From contig JAGWGZ010000006.1 in NCBI GenBank assembly GCA_028867075.1, positions 1-41,314 of the forward strand: 41,314 nt of DNA, in the 5' to 3' direction. The DNA is from Nanobdellota archaeon (GTDB lineage Archaea; Nanobdellota; Nanobdellia; Pacearchaeales; GW2011-AR1). The stretch's first letter is position 1; each line of letters starts with the position of its first letter. The notes beneath the pieces were generated by a model, which worked only from the letters and a program-made list of their open reading frames with translations, was not told the DNA's origin and searched no databases. Position numbers and translations under genes: made by a program. This document shows, in pieces, positions 1,937 through 40,857 of the stretch.

Positions 1937-3979
1937 TTATAATACGATAACATTCGCCTGGCTTCCAATATAGATTGTCTGATTAGCATAAAGAGATCCC
2001 AAGTCAGATGCCTGCAAGGTTGCATTTACTGTAAAATTACCTGAAATATCAGTGCTTATTTTTGTTACACCATTATCGTTTAAATGAGCAACCCATATAT
2101 TTGTTCCATTTATTGCTATACTAAAATATCTTCCTCCCCCCACATCACTATAATTTGTCATTGTTCCATCTGGAGCAACCTTAGTTATACTATTATCTCC
2201 CTTATTAACTGTCCACATGTTGGTGCCATCAAATGCAATTGCAATAGGATTTACTCCTGTTCCGGTATAGTTTGTCATTGTTCCTGAAGGAGTTATTTTT
2301 GTAACTGAGTTACTCCCATAGTTTGCGGTCCACATGTTGGTGCCATCAAATGCGATTGAATAAGGAGTATCCCCTGTTCCCGTTGCATATAATAAAATCC
2401 CTCCACTAGATGAAACCTTAGTCACACTATCACTAAGAGAATTAGTAATCCACATGTTGGTGCCATCAAATGCGATTGCAAGACCACCTAACCCTGAAGA
2501 CATAGCATAAGATGTTGATGTTCCATCTGGGGCTACTTTTACCACAGCACTTTGATGAGATACGAGAGCAGATGTCGCAATCCACATGTTGGTTCCGTCA
2601 AATGCAATTCCTCGTGGGGTGGTAGTCAGAGAAGAATAATTTGTCATAGTCCCGGTTGGAGTAATTTTCGTGACGCTATTGCTATTTGCATTTGCTGTCC
2701 ACATGTTAGTGCCGTCAAAAGCGATTGAATAAGGAGTAGCTCCCGTTCCAGAATAAGTAGTCATTGTTCCGGTTGGAGTTATTTTTGTAACTGAGTTACT
2801 GGCAAGATTAGTAACCCATATATTTGTTCCATCAGATGCAATTGCCTGCGGACTATCTCCTGTTCCAAAATAATTAGTCATGAATGGTCCTGTATATGAA
2901 AGGTTTCCTGTTCCCATATTGCAGTCTACCTTAAGGATGCAGTTTGCAGGCATAGCAACATCCCAATTTTGATTCAGTCCAGAACAAAAACAATAAGTAT
3001 ACCCATCAAATGCAATTGCCTGGGGATACCTTCCAGTCCCAGTATAATTGGTCATTGTTCCACTAGGGGCTATTTTAGTTACACTACCAGAGCTATTAAT
3101 CCCCCCATCATAATTTGCGGTCCACATGTTGGTTCCGTCAAATGCGATTGCATCAGGATAGAAACCTGTTCCGGTGTATGTTATCATTGTTCCTGCGGGG
3201 GTTATTTTTGTAACTGAGTTACCCATATAATTTGCGGTCCACATGTTGGTGCCGTCAAATGCAATTGCATAGGGTTGATTTCCTGTCCCAGTATAATTGG
3301 TCATTGTTCCTGCGGGGGTTATTTTTGTAACACTATTGCCCAATTTATTTGCAGTCCACATGTTGGTGCCGTCAAATGCAATTGCAACCGGTTGAAAACC
3401 AGTTTCTGTGTATGTTGTCATTGTCCCATCTGGAGCTATTTTTGTAACACTATTATCACCCTGATTCGCTGTCCACATGTTGGTGCCGTCAAATGCAATT
3501 GCAACAGGGGTTGCTCCTGTTCCGGTGTAATTTGTCATCACACCTCCTGAAGAAATTTTCGTGACGCTATTGCTATTTGCATTTGCTGTCCACATGTTGG
3601 TGCCGTCAAATGCAATTGCACTAGGACCTACTCCTGTTCCCGTATAAGTTGTCGTTATTCCTGCGGGGGTTATTTTTGTAACACTGTGACCAATATCATT
3701 TACAATCCACATGTTTGTTCCATCAGAAGCTATACCATAGGGAGTATTTGCTCCAGAAATGGTATAATTAGTAATTACACCTGCCGGGGTTATTTTTGAA
3801 ACGCCAGAATCTATACTATTCGCAGTCCACATATTTGCGGTTCCTGGAGCATTTCCATTTAGAGTCAAAGGTATAAGCGCTTTTGTAAACGGCAGAAAGA
3901 ATAAAAAAGACATAAATAAAATCAGCAAAAAGATTCCTGCGCCAGAATAAACCCCCTTATGTTTTCTTAAGCCGAGCAT
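1937..3979 (-). CDS. Secreted beta-propeller-like repeat protein (streptogramin-lyase-like repeats)
   Basis: The protein has 680 residues, with a membrane-inserting signal at about 14-36. The rest is about 15 repeats of roughly 39 residues with consensus AFDGTNMWTANxxxNSVTKI, then TPxGTMTNYTGTGxxPxAI. Each repeat has the four-strand look of a propeller blade, similar to Vgb/SMP-30/NHL-type repeats. Fifteen units would fit two seven-bladed propellers plus a terminal unit. One unit near residues 330-385 is divergent, longer and carries four cysteines. The catalytic residues of streptogramin lyase cannot be confirmed, so a binding or scaffold role at the surface is more likely than enzyme activity. 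The start overlaps the end of the long fibre gene by 13 bp, so the two are probably co-transcribed. Confidence 0.7.
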   Translation of the reverse strand: MLGLRKHKGVYSGAGIFLLILFMSFLFFLPFTKALIPLTLNGNAPGTANMWTANSIDSGVSKITPAGVITNYTISGANTPYGIASDGTNMWIVNDIGHSVTKITPAGITTTYTGTGVGPSAIAFDGTNMWTANANSNSVTKISSGGVMTNYTGTGATPVAIAFDGTNMWTANQGDNSVTKIAPDGTMTTYTETGFQPVAIAFDGTNMWTANKLGNSVTKITPAGTMTNYTGTGNQPYAIAFDGTNMWTANYMGNSVTKITPAGTMITYTGTGFYPDAIAFDGTNMWTANYDGGINSSGSVTKIAPSGTMTNYTGTGRYPQAIAFDGYTYCFCSGLNQNWDVAMPANCILKVDCNMGTGNLSYTGPFMTNYFGTGDSPQAIASDGTNIWVTNLASNSVTKITPTGTMTTYSGTGATPYSIAFDGTNMWTANANSNSVTKITPTGTMTNYSSLTTTPRGIAFDGTNMWIATSALVSHQSAVVKVAPDGTSTSYAMSSGLGGLAIAFDGTNMWITNSLSDSVTKVSSSGGILLYATGTGDTPYSIAFDGTNMWTANYGSNSVTKITPSGTMTNYTGTGVNPIAIAFDGTNMWTVNKGDNSITKVAPDGTMTNYSDVGGGRYFSIAINGTNIWVAHLNDNGVTKISTDISGNFTVNATLQASDLGSLYANQTIYIGSQANVIVL
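2220..3900. repeat. In-gene tandem repeat, about 117-bp period
   Basis: A nearly invariant block (for example CCACATGTTGGTGCCGTCAA on the plus strand) recurs about every 117-120 bp through the propeller gene. Most blocks are identical or differ at one or two bases, while the segments between them vary. This is coding repetition, not a CRISPR array: the period matches 39 codons and the reading frame is kept. Confidence 0.85.
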
Positions 3980-6900
3980 ATCTTTCCCCCTGAATTAAAG
4001 ATTATGCAGGTGTTTGCCGCATTTCCGACTGTAAGATTGCTTGTTATATTTGCATCCCCTATAACATTCAATTTATTCTTCGGGCTCGTTGTTCCTATTC
4101 CGACATAACCATTGGAATTTATAACCATCCTATAAGCACTATTCTTGTTATCATAAAATGCTAAATCGCCCGGAGCTCCGGAACTGCCAAGGGGCTCGGA
4201 TGAGATTGTATAATTTGTGTCTGGTGTCCCAAACTTTATTCCTGCCGCATTTGTCCCATTGGTTATTGTTGTTATGTAAGCCAAAACATTTGAGCTTCCA
4301 TTAATTTGCAGGTTATTTAATGGGTTCGTTGTTCCTATTCCTACATTGCCTGTGTTTTGTATTGCTAGAACGCCTGTTGTCGGCTGAGTTGCTCCGGTAT
4401 TAAAGATTAATGTTCCTCCACTAACATCAGAAGTAGTTTCCCACCATCTATTTCCCGTACCTGTTTGTAAATTTAAAGCGGCAGGGGTTCCAGCAGAAGT
4501 ATCGTATAATGATAAAACGGCGGATGGCGAAGATGTCCCTATTCCAATATTGCTTCCACTCTGATAAATATTAGAATTTCCAAGACCTGTTCCGGAACTC
4601 CACAGAGGAACATAGTTAGTTGTCCCGCTGCCAGTAGGAACATTTCCTCCATTCAAACTAAGGGTGTTTCCCACCTGAAGATAGCCTGTGCTAGAATAAT
4701 AAAGTCTCATTGTTCCGCCTGCATCAAGCAGCTGTATTCCTCCTCTAAAATTCCCTCCGGAGTATCCGTAAGACAACCATGTTGCGCTCGTGCTTGTTCC
4801 CATCTCAGTTCTGTAACCTCCTGCGACAGGAGTGTTTCCCCAAGATGTTGAAGGCCCGTAAGAATTTACTGTGCTGCTTGCATTAATCGTTCCTGAAACA
4901 CTTAATGTATTCGAAGGCGAGGTTGTTCCTATTCCTATTCCTGTATCTGTAACAGACATGATTGGATTTCCGAAATTTGAAAGGCTTCCCAAACCTGTTG
5001 CACTTGATTCATAGAAATTCAAAGCCCCGTTTGATGCCTGAATTAAAGATGGAGAAACAGAAGGGTGCGTGTTCACATAATCCGTCCCATTTCCTTTGGT
5101 GAACCACCCTATATAACCATAACCAGCGCTATGCCCCATGTCAAACCAAGAATTCGTATCAAGAGAAAAGTCAGGATTTTGGGGGCTTCCTGCTGCATTG
5201 CCGGCAATCTGAAGAAGTGATGATGGAGAAGTTGTTCCTATTCCGACGTTGCCTGCATTTGTTATAATCATTCTTAATGTTGAGGGAGAGCCGGTATAAA
5301 ATGTCTGGTTTCCGTTGTTTGTTATGAGATTCAGGCTTCCGTTTAGGTTATTATTTACATACAAATCGTCCGCAGTTGAGCTTCCATATCCTACATATCC
5401 CTTTCTTCCTGTTGAGTCATAGAAAGACAGATAGTTGTTTCCTGTCCCCCTTGCTCCTGCCTGCAACTTCAGGATTTCTCCTCCCGAGCCAGTGATATTT
5501 GCTGTCCCAACAACATTTAGCGTATTTTGGGGAGAGGAAGTTCCTATTCCGACGTTGCCCGCGGCAGTTATGTGCAGCCTGTCCTGCATTGACGTGTCGG
5601 AAGCCTGCCTTGTGCTGAATATCAAATCACCGCCTGTTCCGAGAGGAGATGATTGGAAGCTTGTATATTTCGCGGTTATGGAAGCGAGCATGAAAGACAA
5701 ATTTGTCCCATATCCTGCTGAAGGCGAGAAAGTGTTGAAGTCTATTTCTCCCAATGCCCCATAGCTGCTCGTGTCCCTCGTTGTTATCAGAATATCCGCT
5801 TTCTGCCCTATTGTCCTGTTAAGGTCGTTATTTCCCGAATCAATATTGACATATCCATTGGGCATTGTGTTTGCAGTGGTATAAATGCCTACACTACCAC
5901 CAGAAGAGCCGTTAATAATAAACTGTGCGGGGTAGTTTGCAGTATTCCCGGAGAATATAAAATCGTTTCCGAGAGTCCTGAATACCATGTCCCCCAAGGT
6001 TGCAGACGTGCTCCACTGATTGCTGCCCATTGCCATCCCTATTGCGCCAAGAGCAGTTGGGGTCTGGTTGTAAAAGCTTATTCCGGGCGAGATTGGTCCC
6101 GAAGTGCTTCCCTGAATTGCTATTGCTGACCCGGATTGAGATGGCTTCACCGTGAGTATTTCCTGAGGCGAAGTTGTCCCAATGCCGACACTTCCTCCTG
6201 CAGCCTGAAGAGATATATTGTAAGCGATCGCGGTGTCAGTTCTTCCTCCCTGTATCCAAGAATTGCCGGTCCCATCAACACCCGCATATAATCCATAGGC
6301 ATTGCTTGCAGCCGCTGTAACTCCAAAACCTATGCCTGCTGTGGAGCCTAAGGTCATTAAGGTCGAAGCTGCCGGTACTTGTGTTTGGAATCTCACCTGC
6401 GGGCTTGTTGTTCCTATTCCAACATAGCCTGTTCCATTTTGGAATGTTATATAATTGCTATTCCCCATATCAAAATAAATCGGTCTGTATCCAGAAGCAC
6501 TTCGGTCATATGATACAATATATGCACCTGTAGGTCCAATTGCATTAGTAGACGGATTTATTTCAAGCCCCCCTGCACCCCCATTACTAACAACAAATTT
6601 GTTTTGCGGTGTTGTTGTTCCCACACCCATATTCCCCATGACATACAGATTACTAGGAATATTTATTCCCGCTGTTGAATAGTTTTTAAGATAATCCACT
6701 GTTATGTTTGTTGCAGAGAGGACAACATTTCCGAGGTAAGATGTTCCTGTGACATTCAAATCCCCCACGACATTCAATGTATTCTTCGGGGTTACAGTGT
6801 TTATTCCCACATAATTACTAGTTCCGCTGCCGACAGTTAAGACAGCTCCGTTTGGGTAACCTCCCGAATTTGCTATATAAAACTGCCCGCCGGTTCCTGT

Positions 6901-9333
6901 TGCATTAGCCCCTATATTCCATTGCCTAACTGAAGTTGTCAAATCAGGATTAAAAGTCATAAGGGTTGACGCATTATTGTTTTGGGCTACAACAGCAAAT
7001 CGGGTGTTATTTCCTGAAGCAAATCCGCTAATCGCTCCATTTGCGGCATAAATTGTTCCGGTTATGTTTGCATCACCCACGACATTCAATGTATTCTTGG
7101 GTGAAGTTGTTCCTATTCCTACATTTCCTGAATTATCAATATAAACTTTGGATGTTCCGATTCCTGAACCGCCTGAAAAAAAGTTATATGTTCCATTTTG
7201 GACTATCAATGCGGCTGTATTAGCACTGCCGGGGGTCACCCATGCAGTACCATTATAATAGACATTGCTTCCTAGATAAACACTCGGCTTGCCACCGCTA
7301 CCAGTAGCATAAGAACCGACAAATCCGTTTGGTTTCCCTGTACCCATACTCCCGATGGCAATAACGCTTGGGTCTGCTTCTCCAAATGATGCAGCAATCC
7401 CGCCTGTTGTCCCGTTTACATCAAGGTCATAGTTCGGTGATGTTGTTCCTATTCCGACGTTGCCTGTCGAAGAGTTAATATAAAACAAACTTGTTGTGGA
7501 TTGATTATAAAACCCGAAATGGTTGTTATCAGCCTGCATTATGGAATTAAATGTAACAATATTTCCCTGCCCGGGGTTGCTTGGGGCAATAGCAATCTGA
7601 ATTCCCCCACTGTATCCTGTGATTTGAGAAGGTATAACTGAAGGGTGAGTTGCAATATAATTTGTTCCATTTGCTTTCGCAAACCAGTTTATAGAACCAT
7701 ATCCTGAGCTATGCGCAAGGGTAAACCAATCACTCGTATCCAAAGAAACAACGGGTTGGGGGGCTCCTGCCAGACCTCCAGATATTTGCAATAATGAACT
7801 CGGCGTTGATGTTCCTATTCCAACATTCCAACTAAGATTAGAGGGATAAACATAACTTCCGGACTGATTCCAAACTCCGTTGCTTGAGCCTGCCCCTAAA
7901 TTACCATAGATACTTCCAGTAACATTCAAATCTCCGACGACATTCAAGGTATTCTGTGGGGTTACAGTGTTTATTCCCACATTTCCTGACGGAAGAATTG
8001 TTAATTTTTGAGTAGTATAAAAAGAACTCCCTTGCCCGATGAAGAATTCGCTGTTTGTGCTTCCAAGCCCCATAGCCCATTGTGCACCTGTTGAATTAGC
8101 AAACACTAACTGGGAGCGGGTTGTTGAATTGGGGCTCCGAATAAATACATTTGTTGCAGCACCCGAAGAATTAATATCAAGAGTTCCGACTGGTGAAGTT
8201 GTTCCTATTCCTACATTTCCTGTTGAAGTTATCCTCATCTTTTCAGAGAATAATCCTGCATTTATGTTCTCAAATACCAAGTCTGCACTCGTCGCTCCTG
8301 CATTATGGTTCGTGTTTATTGTCCCTATTCTTCCCTCTGTCACACTTGTTCCTGCTGCATCAGTAGTTGAAAATGCCAGCATGCTTCCTGTATTATTTGT
8401 GGAATTTGAATTTTGTATCTTCAATCCTGATAATATGTTAGCCTGGGTTGTTGTTGAATCACTAAAATTAATGTGAAGAGGATTTGCAGGACTTGCTGTT
8501 CCTATCCCTACGTTTCCTGATTTAACAATTAATCCGTAAGAACCTCCGGCAATATCAATTTCATTCCCGCTATTGTTATTATAAAATATTCCTCCCCAAT
8601 AAGTCCCAGATGCCGCTTCTCCAAGAATGCCGTGCGTTGAGGTCCCCCCTATCCCAGCTATTGCTACTGAATTTTGAAATTGTGAAGCAGGGGTCGTTCC
8701 CTGAATAACTGTCAAAGCATTTTTTGGCGAACTTGTTCCTATTCCGATATATCCGCTCGTGGAATTTATGAAAAACTGCGACTCATTTCCTCCGAGTGCT
8801 CCATTGCTGTTGAATTGTATTGCTCCGTTGTTTCCCCCTGCAGTAACGCTTGAACCGGAAATCCCTGTCAGATATTGCCCATTTCCAAACAAATATGCGG
8901 CAGTGAAGTTATAAGCGCTGATATTTATGTTTCCGTTTGAAAGAACTCCCCCCGAGGGGACATGCCCTGCATAGAATGCATACGGAACCTGGGCAAGCTT
9001 TGACGTGTCAATCAAAACTCCATCCCTATAATAGCAAAGCCAGTATTGCTGGCTGTAATCGCTAAGGATTACATTGTCGAGATAGTAAGAAATGATTCCC
9101 CTTGAGTCAGTTGTCAGCGTCGTGGAATTTGAATAAACAATGTTTGAGACGTTGCAATCAGAGCTTGAAGAGATGTTAAATACAAAGGCAAACGTCCCTG
9201 TCTCAATGCTTCCGTTTGTATAAGTGACCTGAATGTTCAGGTGAAGACTGCTGTAAGCAGAGACAGCATATATGCTTCCTGATAAAGCAGCTATAAAAAA
9301 TAAAACGCTCAAAAAAAATACACCCTTTTTCAT
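3967..9333 (-). CDS. Giant secreted fibre/adhesin protein with GIGTTSP repeats
   Basis: The protein has 1788 residues. It begins with a signal peptide (about 1-24), followed by a beta domain to about residue 125 that ends AQVPYAFYAG, matching the YAF(R/Y)A motif that closes N-terminal domains of bacterial tail-fibre-like proteins. The body carries about 18 copies of the motif GNVGIGTTSPxNxLxVxG, found in phage tail-fibre and long surface-fibre proteins, often trimeric. The C-terminus NTCIIFNSGGKICSA carries two cysteines that could crosslink chains. No intramolecular chaperone (endosialidase-type) domain is visible. It is followed by the propeller gene with a 13-bp overlap. The likely role is adhesion or host/partner contact; the ligand is unknown. 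A TATA-like TTTATAAA about 70 bp upstream (near 9400) may drive it. Confidence 0.75.
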   Translation of the reverse strand: MKKGVFFLSVLFFIAALSGSIYAVSAYSSLHLNIQVTYTNGSIETGTFAFVFNISSSSDCNVSNIVYSNSTTLTTDSRGIISYYLDNVILSDYSQQYWLCYYRDGVLIDTSKLAQVPYAFYAGHVPSGGVLSNGNINISAYNFTAAYLFGNGQYLTGISGSSVTAGGNNGAIQFNSNGALGGNESQFFINSTSGYIGIGTSSPKNALTVIQGTTPASQFQNSVAIAGIGGTSTHGILGEAASGTYWGGIFYNNNSGNEIDIAGGSYGLIVKSGNVGIGTASPANPLHINFSDSTTTQANILSGLKIQNSNSTNNTGSMLAFSTTDAAGTSVTEGRIGTINTNHNAGATSADLVFENINAGLFSEKMRITSTGNVGIGTTSPVGTLDINSSGAATNVFIRSPNSTTRSQLVFANSTGAQWAMGLGSTNSEFFIGQGSSFYTTQKLTILPSGNVGINTVTPQNTLNVVGDLNVTGSIYGNLGAGSSNGVWNQSGSYVYPSNLSWNVGIGTSTPSSLLQISGGLAGAPQPVVSLDTSDWFTLAHSSGYGSINWFAKANGTNYIATHPSVIPSQITGYSGGIQIAIAPSNPGQGNIVTFNSIMQADNNHFGFYNQSTTSLFYINSSTGNVGIGTTSPNYDLDVNGTTGGIAASFGEADPSVIAIGSMGTGKPNGFVGSYATGSGGKPSVYLGSNVYYNGTAWVTPGSANTAALIVQNGTYNFFSGGSGIGTSKVYIDNSGNVGIGTTSPKNTLNVVGDANITGTIYAANGAISGFASGNNTRFAVVAQNNNASTLMTFNPDLTTSVRQWNIGANATGTGGQFYIANSGGYPNGAVLTVGSGTSNYVGINTVTPKNTLNVVGDLNVTGTSYLGNVVLSATNITVDYLKNYSTAGINIPSNLYVMGNMGVGTTTPQNKFVVSNGGAGGLEINPSTNAIGPTGAYIVSYDRSASGYRPIYFDMGNSNYITFQNGTGYVGIGTTSPQVRFQTQVPAASTLMTLGSTAGIGFGVTAAASNAYGLYAGVDGTGNSWIQGGRTDTAIAYNISLQAAGGSVGIGTTSPQEILTVKPSQSGSAIAIQGSTSGPISPGISFYNQTPTALGAIGMAMGSNQWSTSATLGDMVFRTLGNDFIFSGNTANYPAQFIINGSSGGSVGIYTTANTMPNGYVNIDSGNNDLNRTIGQKADILITTRDTSSYGALGEIDFNTFSPSAGYGTNLSFMLASITAKYTSFQSSPLGTGGDLIFSTRQASDTSMQDRLHITAAGNVGIGTSSPQNTLNVVGTANITGSGGEILKLQAGARGTGNNYLSFYDSTGRKGYVGYGSSTADDLYVNNNLNGSLNLITNNGNQTFYTGSPSTLRMIITNAGNVGIGTTSPSSLLQIAGNAAGSPQNPDFSLDTNSWFDMGHSAGYGYIGWFTKGNGTDYVNTHPSVSPSLIQASNGALNFYESSATGLGSLSNFGNPIMSVTDTGIGIGTTSPSNTLSVSGTINASSTVNSYGPSTSWGNTPVAGGYRTEMGTSTSATWLSYGYSGGNFRGGIQLLDAGGTMRLYYSSTGYLQVGNTLSLNGGNVPTGSGTTNYVPLWSSGTGLGNSNIYQSGSNIGIGTSSPSAVLSLYDTSAGTPAALNLQTGTGNRWWETTSDVSGGTLIFNTGATQPTTGVLAIQNTGNVGIGTTNPLNNLQINGSSNVLAYITTITNGTNAAGIKFGTPDTNYTISSEPLGSSGAPGDLAFYDNKNSAYRMVINSNGYVGIGTTSPKNKLNVIGDANITSNLTVGNAANTCIIFNSGGKICSA

Positions 9334-11172: not shown

Positions 11173-11185
11173 GAGCCTGTAGCTC
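11173..11185 (+). repeat. 5' echo of tRNA-Ile (13 nt)
   Basis: GAGCCTGTAGCTC is identical to the first 13 nt of the tRNA-Ile gene that starts at 11245, 72 bp downstream. The identity covers the 5' acceptor strand, positions 8-9 and the 5' D-stem strand and then stops. The intervening DNA holds two possible stem-loops (TGAGA...TCTCA at about 11187-11212; CCGC-ACA-GCGG at about 11214-11224). Confidence 0.8.
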
Positions 11186-11244
11186 TATGAGAAACCCGAA
11201 GGGAGAATCTCATCCGCACAGCGGAGAGCGAAGGCAAATATAAC

Positions 11245-11359
11245 GAGCCTGTAGCTCAGCCTGGCTAGAGCACTGCTCTGATACATGAAAGGATTTCATG
11301 TGCTAAATCCGGTGGATTCAGGAAGGCAGGGGTCCGAGGTTCAAATCCTCGCAGGCTCA
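11245..11359 (+). tRNA. tRNA-Ile(GAT), intron at 37/38
   Basis: The acceptor strands GAGCCTG (11245-11251) and CAGGCTC (11352-11358) pair fully, with discriminator A at 11359 and no encoded CCA. The D-stem is GCTC/GAGC, the anticodon stem CTGCT/GGCAG, the loop CTGATA before the intron gives anticodon GAT, and the T-arm is CGAGG-TTCAAAT-CCTCG. A 40-nt intron at 11284-11323 follows position 37, the canonical archaeal site for the splicing endonuclease. The spliced length is 75 nt. It lies upstream of disA in the same orientation. Confidence 0.93.
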
Positions 11360-14796: not shown

Positions 14797-14818
14797 ATAG
14801 CCTTGCCAGGATTCGAAC
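14797..14818 (-). repeat. 3' echo of tRNA-Gln (22 nt)
   Basis: Positions 14797-14818 are identical to 14864-14885. On the minus strand this copies the T-loop, the 3' T-stem strand, the complete 3' acceptor strand and the discriminator of tRNA-Gln. It lies 67 bp from the original, downstream of the gene in transcription direction. The T-stem 5' strand is absent, so it cannot fold as tRNA. Confidence 0.85.
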
Positions 14819-14864
14819 TGAAAACCACCTGCGGGTTTTCTATCCTGCAACCATCGAATCCACA

Positions 14865-15009
14865 TAGCCTTGCCAGGATTCGAACCTGGGTCACAGACTC
14901 TCTCCACAGAACACAGAGATGCGGAACCATCCCGGAATCAATCCGGAGGTGCGGAACCGTTTGGGTTCTGGCCAGAGGCCTGTATACTTGACCGCTGTAC
15001 TACAAGGCT
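14865..15009 (-). tRNA. tRNA-Gln(CTG), intron at 37/38
   Basis: On the minus strand the acceptor AGCCTTG (15009-15003) pairs with CAAGGCT (14872-14866), with discriminator A. The D-stem is GTAC/GTAT, the anticodon stem CAGGC/GTCTG, the loop CTCTGG before the intron gives anticodon CTG, and the T-arm is CCAGG-TTCGAAT-CCTGG. The intron is 72 nt (14900-14971). The intron contains one full and one partial copy of the dispersed hairpin repeat. A TATA-like TTTTTATACC is centred near 15037, 27 bp before the 5' end. The spliced length is 73 nt. Confidence 0.92.
14900..14971 (-). other. tRNA-Gln intron carrying dispersed repeat copies
   Basis: The 72-nt intron holds CAGAACC-CAAAC-GGTTCCGCACCTCC (14945-14971 region) and a second partial copy, GGTTCCGCATCTCTG, at 14915-14928. 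Thus the intron body is built largely from the repeat found at several intergenic sites in this window. Confidence 0.75.
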
Positions 15010-15061
15010 ATGTAAACTTTAGAGATAAATGGTATAAAAAGGTTTCATCGAGAAAAATTTT

Positions 15062-16408
15062 TTAGATCCCAAACATATTTCTAAAGAAATTAATGATTTG
15101 CTGCAGAAAGTTTGGTGTGACACATTCTGAATTTGCGCATAAATTAGATGCGCATTCAAAATTGTTGTCGCATATACCGCTATTTATCTGCATCGTAAGA
15201 GTATTGTTAATATTGCAATAATTCGTTCCTATACGATAGCCATAAGGAAGACACTTAGCCTTATATAAACATCCTGAAGGACAGATGAGAGTATTATTTG
15301 CAATAAGGGGTGAAGTTATTGTTTGATTTCCAGAATAATTTGCAAGAGAATTTGCATTTGATGATGCAGGAACTGTCTGGTTTGTTAAATTCTCTGATGT
15401 ATTGCCCGAAGCAGAAACTGTATTTGACTGGTTCAATGGCAGATTATTATTTGAAGAAGAACTAATACAAGCGCCGTCGCTGCACCCATAAGGGCATGAA
15501 TAAGTTTGTATTGACCAGATATAGCTATTATTTGTACAATAATATTCAGCCAAGGTGACGTTATTTGAGCAGGAATCCCATCCGGAAAAGGTAGCGGTCT
15601 GAATAAGTCCTTTTACATAAATATTTCCTCCATTGGACTTACTACAGGAATAAGTTGGTGTTGTTGTATTTGTTGGATTATTGGAAGAGATAGATGAGTT
15701 TAATATTCCGACAATCTGTGCCCATGAGTTTACTGAGGCACCGGTCGGACCTCCGTAAGATACATTATAAACCGTTCCATTGAGAACTAAATAGGTGTGA
15801 CCAGATGAAGAAGGAGTTCCGGTTTTGTAAGTTAAACCGGTTAATACATTTTGATACATTACATAATCATTTGTATATGATGTTGAATCAACCCAAACAT
15901 TTGTAAGTTGTAAAAGTAGAGAAAGATTTGTAGAAAGGATATATCCATTCAGACTCGTATTAGAGTATAAAGAGTCCATAACACTTATGTTACCAACAGT
16001 ACTCCCGACAATCTGTGCCCATGAGTTTACTGAGGCACCGGTCGGACCTCCGTAAGATACATTATAAACCGTTCCATTGAGAACTAAATAGGTGTGACCA
16101 GATGAAGTTCCGAATCTTGTATATGTTGAACCAGTTATGGGGTTAGTATACATCACATAATCATTAGTATAAAGAGAGGGATCAATATAGACACCAGACA
16201 ATTGTAATAGGGTATTATTAACAAGAGTATAATAATTAAGAGAAGTATTTCCGTTAGTCGTCGGATTTGAGATCACATATCCGGTTGCCCTAGAATGATA
16301 GATAAAAAATGTTAGAAATACAAGAGCCAATAATACTATAAAAATGCCGATAATTATCAAAATCTTAGATTTAAATTCTGATTTATTACTCTCTCTTTTA
16401 ACAACCAT
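15062..16408 (-). CDS. Membrane-anchored extracellular protein with duplicated domain
   Basis: The 448-residue protein has one N-terminal membrane segment (about 15-38) and an extracellular remainder rich in Asn, Ser and Thr with many NxS/T sites. Two copies of a domain of about 99 residues (about 55-150 and 155-250) share VYIDPSLYTNDYVMY-like and SSGHTYLVLNGTVYNVSY motifs; part of the copy is identical at DNA level over 103 bp. A cysteine-rich C-terminal part follows, including a CDNNFECASNLCANSEC-type knot shared with other DPANN surface proteins. It ends in an amphipathic or hydrophobic tail (FLQQIINFFRNMFGI). Function unknown; a cell-surface role is inferred. Confidence 0.65.
   Translation of the reverse strand: MVVKRESNKSEFKSKILIIIGIFIVLLALVFLTFFIYHSRATGYVISNPTTNGNTSLNYYTLVNNTLLQLSGVYIDPSLYTNDYVMYTNPITGSTYTRFGTSSGHTYLVLNGTVYNVSYGGPTGASVNSWAQIVGSTVGNISVMDSLYSNTSLNGYILSTNLSLLLQLTNVWVDSTSYTNDYVMYQNVLTGLTYKTGTPSSSGHTYLVLNGTVYNVSYGGPTGASVNSWAQIVGILNSSISSNNPTNTTTPTYSCSKSNGGNIYVKGLIQTATFSGWDSCSNNVTLAEYYCTNNSYIWSIQTYSCPYGCSDGACISSSSNNNLPLNQSNTVSASGNTSENLTNQTVPASSNANSLANYSGNQTITSPLIANNTLICPSGCLYKAKCLPYGYRIGTNYCNINNTLTMQINSGICDNNFECASNLCANSECVTPNFLQQIINFFRNMFGI
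15708..15810. repeat. 103-bp exact direct repeat, copy 1
   Basis: Identical base for base to 16005-16107; the offset is 297 bp (99 codons), so the reading frame is preserved. It lies inside the secreted protein gene and encodes the SSGHTYLVLNGTVYNVSY part of each domain. Confidence 0.95.
16005..16107. repeat. 103-bp exact direct repeat, copy 2
   Basis: Second copy of the repeat at 15708-15810. Absence of even synonymous differences over 103 bp, while the flanking parts of the two domains have diverged, points to recent gene conversion or duplication. Confidence 0.95.
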
Positions 16409-16548: not shown

Positions 16549-16695
16549 TGCCCCTGCCGAGATTCGAACTCGGGTCACGGCCGTTCTCCAAACTTCAAAG
16601 ATTGGAGTAGTTGCATTGAGATGCTAGACTTCATCCTTTCGACAAGGCGAAATCACTTGAGAGGGCCGCATTCTTGGCCTCTGAACTACGGGGGC
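16549..16695 (-). tRNA. tRNA-Glu(CTC), intron at 37/38
   Basis: On the minus strand the acceptor GCCCCCG (16695-16689) pairs with CAGGGGC (16556-16550) with one C6-A67 mismatch; discriminator A. The D-stem is GTTC/GAAT, the anticodon stem CGGCC/GGCCG, the loop CTCTCA + C gives anticodon CTC, and the T-arm is CCGAG-TTCGAAT-CTCGG. The intron is 74 nt (16584-16657). A TATA-like CATAAATTC (16718-16726) is centred 27 bp before the 5' end. The spliced length is 73 nt. Confidence 0.92.
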
Positions 16696-16730
16696 TTCCT
16701 GCGCCCGGATTCAGGTCGAATTTATGAGGC

Positions 16731-16745
16731 CTGAACTACGGGGGC
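16731..16745 (-). repeat. 5' echo of tRNA-Glu (15 nt)
   Basis: Minus-strand GCCCCCGTAGTTCAG repeats the first 15 nt of tRNA-Glu, 50 bp upstream of the gene. The copy lies just upstream of the tRNA TATA box, so it is probably outside the tRNA transcript. It is followed upstream by a GC-rich inverted repeat CCCTATG (16766-16772) / CATAGGG (16786-16792). Confidence 0.8.
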
Positions 16746-23176: not shown

Positions 23177-23899
23177 TCAGAACGAGGGCATCGGTGGAAA
23201 ATATGAATCCTGCTGTTCATTTATTCTGCTTGCAAGAGTATTTAGGATCGGCTGCAAAGAGGAATCTTTTCCTATTCCCTTCAGTTCAATATACTTTGAG
23301 GTCTCTGCCCCGTCAATTCCGTCTGAGAAAACGCTGAAATCAAAAACTTTTTCTCCATTTGCTCTTCTCTGCAGAAGAATATACATCTTTCCACCATAAC
23401 CAAACACAGCGCGCCCCAAATTCCCACTATCTGGCCCTTTCTCCGAAGATAGATCAAAGTGATCGTAATAACGGATAATACGGGAATCGTTCTTGAACGC
23501 ATCTTCAATCGTGGTCGCTTCCTTCTGCACATAATTCTGGCGGAGATTGTTCCCTTCTGTCTTTTGTGTTTGAGTTATAGCATTTCCTGTATAAATAAAG
23601 ATTCCCGAAGAAGAATTGACAGTGACTCTTTCCAGGCTTCCCTTGGCACCATAGTCAAACTGGACTATTGATTCAACATCTCCGTCTCTCTCTGTTTTAA
23701 CATAGCTTTTGTCATTTAATACAGCAACAGGCCCCCATGGCGCCGGCTCTGAAACGGCACGATTAAGCTGCTTGGCAGAGGGGGGGTACTTTCCCATGAA
23801 AAGCGAGCCAACATCATTATGTTCGCGGGCAAAGACAGAACCTGCACCAACTGTAAGGAGAGTGAGCGCAGCAATAAGCCTCTTTAATCCCTCAGCCAT
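23177..23899 (-). CDS. Secreted protein of unknown function
   Basis: The 240-residue protein has an N-terminal signal peptide (about 1-24, AALTLLTVGAGSVFA with an AxA-type cleavage site) and a mature part with mixed beta segments (ESIVQFDYGAKGSLERVTV, NSSSGIFIYTGNAI, AVFGYGGKMYILLQRR) and no cysteine. The signal peptide resembles that of the 547-residue protein at 289. No family recognised. Confidence 0.6.
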   Translation of the reverse strand: MAEGLKRLIAALTLLTVGAGSVFAREHNDVGSLFMGKYPPSAKQLNRAVSEPAPWGPVAVLNDKSYVKTERDGDVESIVQFDYGAKGSLERVTVNSSSGIFIYTGNAITQTQKTEGNNLRQNYVQKEATTIEDAFKNDSRIIRYYDHFDLSSEKGPDSGNLGRAVFGYGGKMYILLQRRANGEKVFDFSVFSDGIDGAETSKYIELKGIGKDSSLQPILNTLASRINEQQDSYFPPMPSF

Positions 23900-23976: not shown

Positions 23977-24124
23977 AGCCTCAGCTGAGGATTGAACTCA
24001 GGACCTCGACATCTTTGGGATTTCCGGGAGGGAAAGTCAAGCGAACGGCTTTTTGCGATGCGTATGCGTAATCGCGTGTCGTCGCATACCAATGTCGCGC
24101 TCTTACCGACTGAGCTACTGAGGC
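23977..24124 (-). tRNA. tRNA-Thr(GGT), intron at 37/38
   Basis: On the minus strand the acceptor GCCTCAG (24124-24118) pairs with CTGAGGC (23984-23978); discriminator T (23977), as in other archaeal tRNA-Thr. The D-stem is GCTC/GAGC, the anticodon stem CGACA/TGTCG, the loop TTGGTA before the intron gives anticodon GGT, the variable loop is AGGTC, and the T-arm is CTGAG-TTCAATC-CTCAG. The intron is 74 nt (24013-24086). A TATA-like ATTTTTAAAA at about 24151-24160 is roughly 30 bp before the 5' end. The spliced length is 74 nt. Confidence 0.92.
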
Positions 24125-24178
24125 TTGATGAAAGTAGCGAGTTAATCTCCTTTTAAAAATTTAAGGGAAAGCTAAGCG

Positions 24179-24204
24179 AAGCAGAACCAAAGGTTCCGCA
24201 CCTC
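24179..24204 (+). repeat. Dispersed hairpin repeat, copy B
   Basis: A 26-bp block identical (in inverted orientation) to 40832-40857. The core GCAGAACC-AAA-GGTTCCGC can form an 8-bp stem with one G-T pair, followed by ACCTC. It lies upstream of tRNA-Thr, between the gene and its 5' echo. Confidence 0.85.
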
Positions 24205-24231
24205 TGATAAAATAAACCGCAGGTTGTCTCG

Positions 24232-24246
24232 CTGAGCTACTGAGGC
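24232..24246 (-). repeat. 5' echo of tRNA-Thr (15 nt)
   Basis: Minus-strand GCCTCAGTAGCTCAG repeats the first 15 nt of tRNA-Thr, 122 bp upstream of the gene and beyond its TATA-like box. The match ends at the start of the D-loop, as for the tRNA-Glu echo. Confidence 0.8.
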
Positions 24247-28071: not shown

Positions 28072-28096
28072 TTTATATCAATAAGGACAGAAGATT

Positions 28097-28189
28097 TTCA
28101 TTTTAAATTAACAGGAGGTGTGGAATCTTCATTTTAAATTAATGGAAAGTGGGAAATTTTCATTTTAAATTAATAGGAGGTGTGGAACC
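28097..28189 (-). repeat. 31-bp tandem repeat (3 units) forming minicistrons before minD-like gene
   Basis: Units start at 28097, 28128 and 28159, each beginning TTCATTTTAAATTAA on the plus strand; a diverged fourth occurrence (28067-28081) covers the minD-like start codon. On the minus strand each unit gives TTAATTTAAAATGAA. Reading from those ATGs gives MKISHFPLI-stop, MKIPHLLLI-stop and MKIFCPY-stop. The first two stops are followed by one nucleotide and the next ATG; the third stop is two codons before the real ATG. Units 1 and 3 carry GGAGGTGTGGAA, the left arm of the dispersed hairpin repeat. Confidence 0.85.
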
Positions 28190-28201
28190 TCGGTTCTACT
28201 T
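28176..28201 (-). repeat. Dispersed hairpin repeat, copy C
   Basis: Plus strand GGAGGTGTGGAACCTCGG followed by TTCTACTT; on the minus strand AAGTAGAACC-GA-GGTTCCACACCTCC. It forms an 8-bp stem and includes the TAG stop codon (28196-28198) of the 146-residue gene. Confidence 0.8.
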
Positions 28202-28636
28202 ACTAAGAAATTGTTTAGTTGTGCTTATAAATTTTTCCAGCATGCTTGCATAAGTTTTCAGCTGTTCAAGATTTATGTCCACATCTTCTCCGCGGTAAAT
28301 GATTTTCAGTGTCACATTTTTCCTGAACTCGCCGATTCTTTCCTTTCTGAGATCCTCAAGTTTCCTCAGCATCTCATAGAAATCAATCACTGCGAGAAAA
28401 TCCTTGTCGTTTCTGAAAAGTTTCTTCACTTCTTCTGTTTTTCCGAGCGGACTCGCGGAGATGGATGAAATTTTTTTCTTTGACTTCGCATGTTTCAGAA
28501 TCTCTTCAATGCTTGTCTCTATCATTCTCCTCCACCTCAAAAGCAAATTGATGATTACATCGCAGGTCTTTGTATACTTGAGACTGACATATAAAAGATG
28601 GTCTGCCCTAATTTTTTCCTGTATTATCTCTTCCAT
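28196..28636 (-). CDS. Helical protein of unknown function
   Basis: The 146-residue protein is mostly alpha-helical (MEEIIQEKIRADHLLYVSLK, TCDVIINLLLRWRRMIETSI, DFYEMLRKLEDLRKERIGEF) with a short strand pair around VTLKIIYRGEDVDINLEQL. I do not recognise a family, although the style is that of conserved archaeal proteins. Its stop codon lies within dispersed repeat copy C and an inverted partial copy lies upstream (28661-28674), so the gene is bracketed by the repeat. Confidence 0.65.
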   Translation of the reverse strand: MEEIIQEKIRADHLLYVSLKYTKTCDVIINLLLRWRRMIETSIEEILKHAKSKKKISSISASPLGKTEEVKKLFRNDKDFLAVIDFYEMLRKLEDLRKERIGEFRKNVTLKIIYRGEDVDINLEQLKTYASMLEKFISTTKQFLSK

Positions 28637-40575: not shown

Positions 40576-40855
40576 GTTTGATAGGATAAACTTGCGCTGA
40601 ACTCGATATTAAGAAAAAACCTCTAAAGAATAATTATGCGAATTTGGGTGGATTTTTGTCAGTTAATATATTTGTTATCAATAACGAGCGACGCGAACTA
40701 TTCTTTTTGGGTCGGATGGGTGGATAGGAAAGCTATCGCTAAAGAATATTTCTAAAAGAAAAGTAAAAATTAAAAATTAAATTAAAAAATAAAAAATTTA
40801 GAGAAAAATTACAACTCCTTCTTAATTATCGGAGGTGCGGAACCTTTGGTTCTGC
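40576..40855. other. Intergenic region with AT-rich tract and repeat copy D
   Basis: No gene is seen. It holds a strongly A/T-rich stretch (about 40755-40810), a short palindrome-like AGCTATCGCT patch near 40731, and the dispersed hairpin repeat at its right end (copy D). Confidence 0.5.
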
Positions 40856-40857
40856 TT
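40832..40857 (-). repeat. Dispersed hairpin repeat, copy D
   Basis: A 26-bp block identical to copy B (24179-24204) in opposite orientation. On the minus strand it starts with the last bases of the RRM gene stop codon and forms the hairpin GCAGAACC-AAA-GGTTCCGC followed by ACCTCC, in the position of a 3' end element of that gene. Confidence 0.85.

Follow-up and report, generated by a model that had tools for sequence, protein, structure and literature searches.

The tRNA-Thr(GGT) gene of the archaeal contig analysed here (the window, 41,314 nt) is preceded by an exact copy of its own first 15 nucleotides, with a dispersed hairpin repeat between copy and gene. This arrangement raises the question of how the end of a tRNA gene comes to be duplicated beside the gene, and whether the hairpin took part. 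It has long been asked how the tRNA genes of archaea came to be interrupted, split and fragmented, and the main model, in which mobile elements integrate, is based on few loci. Within a 575-kb draft genome of 26 contigs (G000, 88.7% complete), the window corresponds to contig 9. The genome, probably that of a DPANN-type archaeon, encodes an archaeal-type PolB and has tRNA introns of the BHB type. It was compared with G001, a member of the same genus, and with G002-G036 from the same family, the completeness of the drafts compared being 61-95%.

The tRNA-Thr locus and its counterpart in a congener

With tRNA genes called by aragorn, introns allowed, the locus comprises the following features:

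23977-24124, minus strand: tRNA-Thr(GGT), from aragorn with introns, BHB boundaries and the G001 orthologue
24087-24124, minus strand: exon 1 of tRNA-Thr(GGT), nt 1-38 (aragorn, BHB, G001 orthologue)
24013-24086, minus strand: intron of 74 nt at the canonical 37/38 site (BHB, BLAST of the own genome, G001)
23977-24012, minus strand: exon 2 (aragorn, BHB)
24125-24231, minus strand: Thr insert, 107 nt, ORF-less, between copy and tRNA; homologue of the tRNA-Lys(TTT) insert
24183-24213, minus strand: 31-nt block of the Thr insert, absent from the Lys insert in the alignment and equivalent to repeat B
24179-24210: repeat B, 32 nt, inside the Thr insert, 97% identical to an inverted copy at 40826-40857
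24232-24246, minus strand: exact copy of tRNA-Thr nt 1-15, adjoining the upstream promoter region

The sequence GCCTCAGTAGCTCAG has exactly two occurrences on the minus strand, at 24110-24124 and 24232-24246, which are 122 bp apart, start to start. A 15-nt copy of the 5' end at this distance upstream is what the first-pass annotation had described, and its position for the copy (24246-24232) is correct; the match on the gene side lies at 24110-24124, not at 24118-24110 as given there. The dispersed hairpin repeat reported between copy and gene is also present, at 24179-24210 within the 107-nt insert.

The same annotation had proposed a search for empty sites in close relatives, and one is found in G001, where the syntenic tRNA-Thr(GGT) has no intron, no end-copy and no insert. 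The gene order common to both genomes is MetRS, two small membrane proteins, tRNA-Thr(GGT), a 162-aa gene and a UMP-kinase-like gene, and two neighbour genes of the tRNA are homologous between them, at 31% and 52% identity. In G001 the distance from the upstream stop codon to the tRNA start is 48 nt, whereas in the window 59 nt separate the stop codon from the copy and 181 nt separate it from the tRNA. The copy is thus located where the tRNA would be expected to start, and the tRNA itself appears displaced. Judged from the one syntenic locus compared, the G001 locus represents the empty site, and the idea that the intervening DNA arrived together with the duplication is borne out to that extent.

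Directly downstream of tRNA-Thr, a 240-aa ORF (window 23177-23899, minus strand) without a Pfam match is missing from the syntenic place in G001, so that additional DNA is present downstream of this tRNA too.

End-copies and insert families at other tRNA genes

Copies of each tRNA's own ends were scanned for in 300 nt of flank with neighbours masked and a score of at least 11, and the ends of each tRNA were matched to the flanks of other tRNAs as a swap control. All copy counts quoted here come from one masked scan, which was preceded by several thresholds and hand readings. In G000, own-end copies occur at 9 of 34 tRNAs, seven at the 5' end (Ile(GAT), Glu(CTC), Thr(GGT), Lys(TTT), Ser(GCT), Ser(GGA) and Glu(TTC)) and two at the 3' end (Gln(CTG) and Lys(CTT)). 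The swap control predicts 0-0.2 copies per genome and end; for the 34 tRNAs of G000 it predicts 0.1-0.2 at each end, with 0.1 expected vs 7 seen for the 5' copies. The end-copy at tRNA-Thr is far above chance, and is not restricted to tRNA-Thr. Three further cases lie in the window:

16549-16695, minus strand: tRNA-Glu(CTC) with a 74-nt intron (aragorn, BHB)
16731-16745, minus strand: copy of tRNA-Glu(CTC) nt 1-15, beyond a 35-nt insert (16696-16730)
11245-11359, plus strand: tRNA-Ile(GAT) with a 40-nt intron (aragorn)
11173-11185, plus strand: copy of tRNA-Ile(GAT) nt 1-13, beyond a 59-nt insert (11186-11244)
14864-15010, minus strand: tRNA-Gln(CTG), labelled Pyl by aragorn, with a 72-nt intron that contains repeat B twice (aragorn, BHB)
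14797-14818, minus strand: copy of the last 22 nt of tRNA-Gln(CTG), beyond a 45-nt insert (14819-14863)

Three other genera of the family have 8-25 copies each: G030 with 25 copies at 31 tRNAs (8 at 5' and 17 at 3' ends), G027 with 14 at 38 tRNAs (8 and 6) and G007 with 8 at 36 tRNAs (6 and 2). G003 has one clear 5' case and one clear 3' case; a 24-nt 5' match at its tRNA-Ser was discounted, as it reads as tRNA-Ile sequence. By the masked scan, end-copies are absent among the 33, 38 and 39 tRNAs of G001, G012 and G013, respectively. The 5' copies span tRNA nt 1 to nt 12-17, mostly 14-15, and when they are compared at 13 nt, 22 have no mismatch and 5 have one, the expected numbers being 0.1 and 0.3. 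The 3' copies start around the T-loop and end at nt 73 or one base past it; they are 11-25 nt long, many of them 15-16 nt, and 5' ends are used as targets as well.

The inserts between copy and tRNA are 31-201 nt long, ORF-less and hairpin-rich, and they are more structured than copy-free flanks (Mann-Whitney p = 3e-8). They group into families whose members occur at different tRNAs, the end-copy in each case being that of the local tRNA. In G000, Ser(GGA), Ser(GCT) and Glu(TTC) share a constant core with arms that follow each tRNA; this core was not found elsewhere in about 260 kb of G000 plus the fetched loci. In G030, a genome-wide search with family 1 gave eight significant places, every one beside a tRNA. 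At seven of the eight, the insert follows a tRNA 3' end in the same orientation and is itself followed by the own-end copy, two of the seven standing in tandem at Arg(TCT); at the eighth it is inverted and the copy is imperfect. At the G030 tRNA-Val, family 1 is succeeded by family 2 and then by the end-copy.

The two families also differ in where the copy begins, which is TT^CGA in all five clean inserts of family 1 and 3 nt further on in family 2 (five inserts). In each family, conservation on the right extends to the very base that precedes the copy (cores CGAGGATTTACATCCGACGC and AGAACCTGAGGACAGG), whereas the left ends are ragged; they start with a T-arm-like GATTCGAA, for which reason a portion of the unit may itself be an earlier copy of a tRNA. 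With right ends conserved and left ends ragged, terminal inverted repeats were not established for the inserts. For one core to occur beside different tRNAs, each with its own end duplicated, the best explanation is an insertion that duplicates its target; had the units been copied by homology, the end of the donor tRNA would have come along.

Several further hairpin arrangements were noted. At two G030 loci (L251 and L266), tandem units of 60-70 bp after tRNA-Arg(CCT) consist of a T-arm-like half, a hairpin and a tRNA 3' end, and this tandem-unit family is also found after Glu, Gln and Ala tRNAs. In G000, a promoter/leader hairpin of about 40 nt, AAGGGAAAGTTTGATAAAGAAAACC..GGTTGTCTTTAT, lies upstream of Val(TAC), Glu(TTC), Gly(CCC), Thr(TGT) and Ala(CGC); it abuts the tRNA start, and at Glu(TTC) it abuts the 5' copy. 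Within the inserts of Lys(TTT) and Thr(GGT), a relative is found in reversed orientation. PolB is directly preceded by three hairpin units in tandem that resemble tRNA-leader element A (G000 C10:31930-32050; L130 11930-12050).

Repeat B and the tRNA introns

As for the hairpin in the Thr insert, the first-pass annotation had suggested that it may be part of the DNA inserted when the tRNA end was duplicated, and had proposed a search for it between tRNA genes and their copies. It is absent from the other six 5'-copy inserts of G000. The Thr and Lys(TTT) inserts (107 vs 73 nt) align globally from end to end with a single large gap of 31 nt, at a score of 72 compared with 45 for the best of 500 shuffles, and BLAST gives 77% identity over 61 nt. 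Since the Lys insert lacks the 31-nt B block and is otherwise alignable, repeat B is to be regarded as a nested passenger and not as the cause; from the alignment it would represent a later insertion within the Thr element, separate from the duplication. Conversely, most copies of repeat B are found where no tRNA copy is present, in introns, ORFs or intergenic DNA. Copy and repeat each occur without the other, which is what the annotation itself had named as speaking against their being tied together, and we reject repeat B as the agent of the tRNA-end duplication.

Repeat B has the form CAGAACC-loop-GGTTCCGCACCTCC and is present in about 14-17 copies in G000, vs 1 for the reversed pattern. 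It is found in the introns of tRNA-Gln, -Arg and -Val, in the Thr insert, in intergenic DNA and in ORFs. The second copy in the window is placed as follows:

40826-40857, plus strand: repeat B, directly after the stop codon of an RNA-binding-protein-like ORF

In PolB, the repeat encodes QNQGSAPPI within a 46-residue stretch (482-528) that measures 17 residues in solved homologues. An RsmF-PUA-like protein contains two or three units, in a layout that the two units in the tRNA-Arg intron resemble, and in a zinc-ribbon ORF a different reading frame is used. The palindromic elements of Rickettsia are dispersed palindromes that occur in RNA genes and protein genes, in several reading frames. Repeat B, with its copies in ORFs, tRNA introns and intergenic DNA, behaves like an element of this type: in both cases a palindrome lies inside protein genes (in frame) and RNA genes. 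Repeat B differs from these elements in being shorter (a core of about 30 nt) and archaeal, and the sequences are probably unrelated. A scan of GTDB r220 for repeat B returned no archaeal contigs, and 15 Myxococcales and 2 alphaproteobacterial contigs (Rhodospirillaceae UBA4479 and Bosea) that are presumably unrelated. A 31-bp tandem repeat of ATTTAAAATGAARATTYCACACCTCC type at window 28094-28217 (minus strand), before a MinD-like gene, has units that share a CACCTCC tail with repeat B.

Introns are present in nine G000 tRNAs, seven of which are intron-less in G001. The Thr(GGT) intron has a 4/4 central helix (TTGG/CCAA) with 3-nt bulges, and the central helix is likewise 4/4 for Gln, Glu, Arg, Val, Ile(GAT) and Ile(TAT), giving 7 of 9 introns; it is 3/4 for Thr(CGT) and Gly. 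These features agree with those of archaeal introns (canonical 37/38 site, 4-bp helix, 3-nt bulges), with a chance expectation of 0.02 each. The intron boundaries were set by hand, and those of Gly and Ile(TAT) were adjusted and then re-scored, so that the BHB helices constitute supporting and not blind evidence. In a BLAST of the own genome, the Thr intron matches dispersed sequence at C18:13354 (25/26) and C19:3514 (20/20). For Gln, Arg, Val and Thr, intron gain in G000 is likely, loss in G001 being the less probable alternative. A model in which the first copy is exon 1 and the insert plus second copy form a D-loop intron was rejected by reasoning, because both junctions have the same sequence and no general BHB is formed.

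A candidate insertion mechanism and its alternatives

From the observed copies, insert families, tRNA specificity, both orientations, nesting and absence from the congener, we lean towards the view that the 107 bp at tRNA-Thr are a miniature non-coding insertion at the tRNA 5' end, which duplicated nt 1-15 of its target, belongs to a wider class in the family and was later invaded by repeat B. After such an insertion the promoter would face the short copy, with the intact tRNA pushed downstream, and the unrelated palindrome of repeat B would have entered the element afterwards. Members of the wider class would be about 30-200 bp long, rich in hairpins and able to enter a tRNA gene at its 5' or its 3' end. 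One of their breakpoints would coincide with the mature end of the tRNA (nt 1 or nt 73) and the second would fall in the D-loop or around the T-loop, so that 12-19 nt of the tRNA end would be left as a direct repeat. We predict that the duplication is produced by the insertion event itself: an enzyme acting in trans would make staggered breaks at the tRNA end and the loop, the insert would be joined at the staggered break, and the overhang would be copied. One strand of the tRNA gene, if folded, would expose exactly these break points.

The enzyme search covered PF00589 and PF01867. The tyrosine recombinase PF00589 has no match in the G000 draft, one match each in G001, G003, G007, G012, G027 and G030, with or without copies, and four in G013, a genome without copies. 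The recombinase numbers do not track the end-copies. Among eight genomes, Cas1 (PF01867) was found in G027 only, and not in G000, G030 or G007. Neither integrase nor Cas1 was found as a resident enzyme of G000, which, like the recombinase numbers, weighs against the favoured reading. RNA-templated copying of tRNA fragments was also rejected, the copied 3' ends having no CCA in the sequences inspected.

The copies could instead be short scars of ordinary viruses or plasmids that once integrated at tRNA ends, their attachment sites, and have since lost most of their DNA. Archaeal tRNA-gene integration does leave partial tRNA copies, and the fragments in Thermococcaceae derive from integrations of 9-23 kb (PMC9897764). 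For tRNA-Thr(GGU) of Caldiarchaeum subterraneum, Sugahara et al. (2012, PMC3293823) describe an additional intron and a 5' fragment that lies 1.8 kb upstream of the gene, and a pNOB8-like element is given as their source. The likeness to our Thr locus is close, with an intact gene preceded by a fragment of its own 5' end, an intron gain and an insertion between, but there the insert is 1.8 kb long, has a predicted recombinase and concerns one locus, whereas the present inserts are 31-201 nt, ORF-less and found at many tRNAs and both ends. Similarly, elements of the SSV and pNOB8 type share with the present inserts the direct repeats of a tRNA end that bracket the insert and leave the tRNA intact. 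They differ in that the present inserts have neither a recombinase nor a kb-scale element, and in that the repeats copy the local target instead of an att core carried by the element. A deletion scar would also be expected to be locus-specific, whereas one and the same core is found in either orientation next to tRNAs whose ends differ, and no counted insert exceeds 201 nt or falls below 31 nt. In addition, G000 is without a tyrosine recombinase, copy number is independent of recombinase number, and the cores were not found in viral contigs, with no exact IMG/VR match for four patterns. We consider this origin unlikely.

An error of replication, in which the tRNA gene folds or stalls the polymerase and the nascent strand switches template back to the T- or D-loop, would produce a partial duplication with captured or inverted filler. 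It would be consistent with breakpoints at the tRNA end and around the loops, with palindromic inserts, and with units that stack, as at tRNA-Cys in G027 and tRNA-Arg(TCT) in G030. It would also fit the complementarity between copy and insert, which is slightly above expectation (pooled z = 2.6) and which plain insertion does not predict. Complementarity judged by eye was set aside, as single loci are mostly not significant and the pooled z is just 2.6. Insert families with a precise right end that recur at up to 7-8 tRNA loci per genome speak against such an error, as does the complete lack of copies in three sampled relatives, for which it offers no explanation, and we regard it as equally improbable.

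The least probable alternative, and in our opinion a very unlikely one, is that selection maintains the copies and hairpins as functional modules in the leader or trailer of the pre-tRNA (e.g., for sequestering or processing). In its favour, the copies are nearly always exact, copy and insert fold well at several loci, and at Ser(GGA), Ser(GCT) and Glu(TTC) a constant core is combined with arms that track each tRNA. Against it, the modules are absent from the congener and two more family genomes with full tRNA sets, just a quarter of the G000 tRNAs carry them, and their structures vary between loci. The 5' copies hardly decay, which could mean function rather than recent insertion, and the structured inserts and the copy-insert pairing would also fit a template switch or a role in the pre-tRNA.

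Regarded as target-duplicating insertions, the inserts resemble MITEs and other non-autonomous elements, which are also short, ORF-less, hairpin-rich and multi-copy, with direct repeats at the target. They differ in their strict preference for tRNA ends and in duplications of 12-19 nt anchored at nt 1 or 73; neither a parent transposase (PF00589 and PF01867 were searched) nor terminal inverted repeats were identified. The casposase of A. boonei duplicates 14-15 bp at a tRNA 3' end (PMC6614799), to which the 3' copies described here may correspond in part, 5' ends being used as well. Casposons are large and encode Cas1, which was not found in G000, G030 or G007. A search of open-access papers brought up no description of ORF-less inserts of comparable length at a large number of tRNAs; confined to such papers, it is weak evidence of novelty. 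The sequences suggest that the end-copying mini-insertions represent a type of miniature insertion, not described before, whose targets are the ends of tRNA genes.

G000 combines end-copies at nine tRNAs, introns that consist partly of dispersed repeats, and empty sites in a congener. If the inserts are mobile, the lineage would hold dozens of natural insertion events from which the target rules can be read, and short partial tRNA copies need not signal excised viruses or plasmids. A more speculative extension, which we find doubtful, is that the site of these elements is set by the folded tRNA gene, which would be broken at the acceptor-stem base and in the D- or T-loop, and that relatives landing in the anticodon loop become spliceable introns; archaeal tRNA fragments and tRNA introns would then have one source.

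Direct repeats of other kinds are also present in the window. An exact 103-bp direct duplication (15708-15810 and 16005-16107) lies in a repeat-rich coding region, and long diverged direct-repeat arrays at 2056-3843 (117-bp period) and 4020-8772 look like coding repeats of large surface-type proteins.
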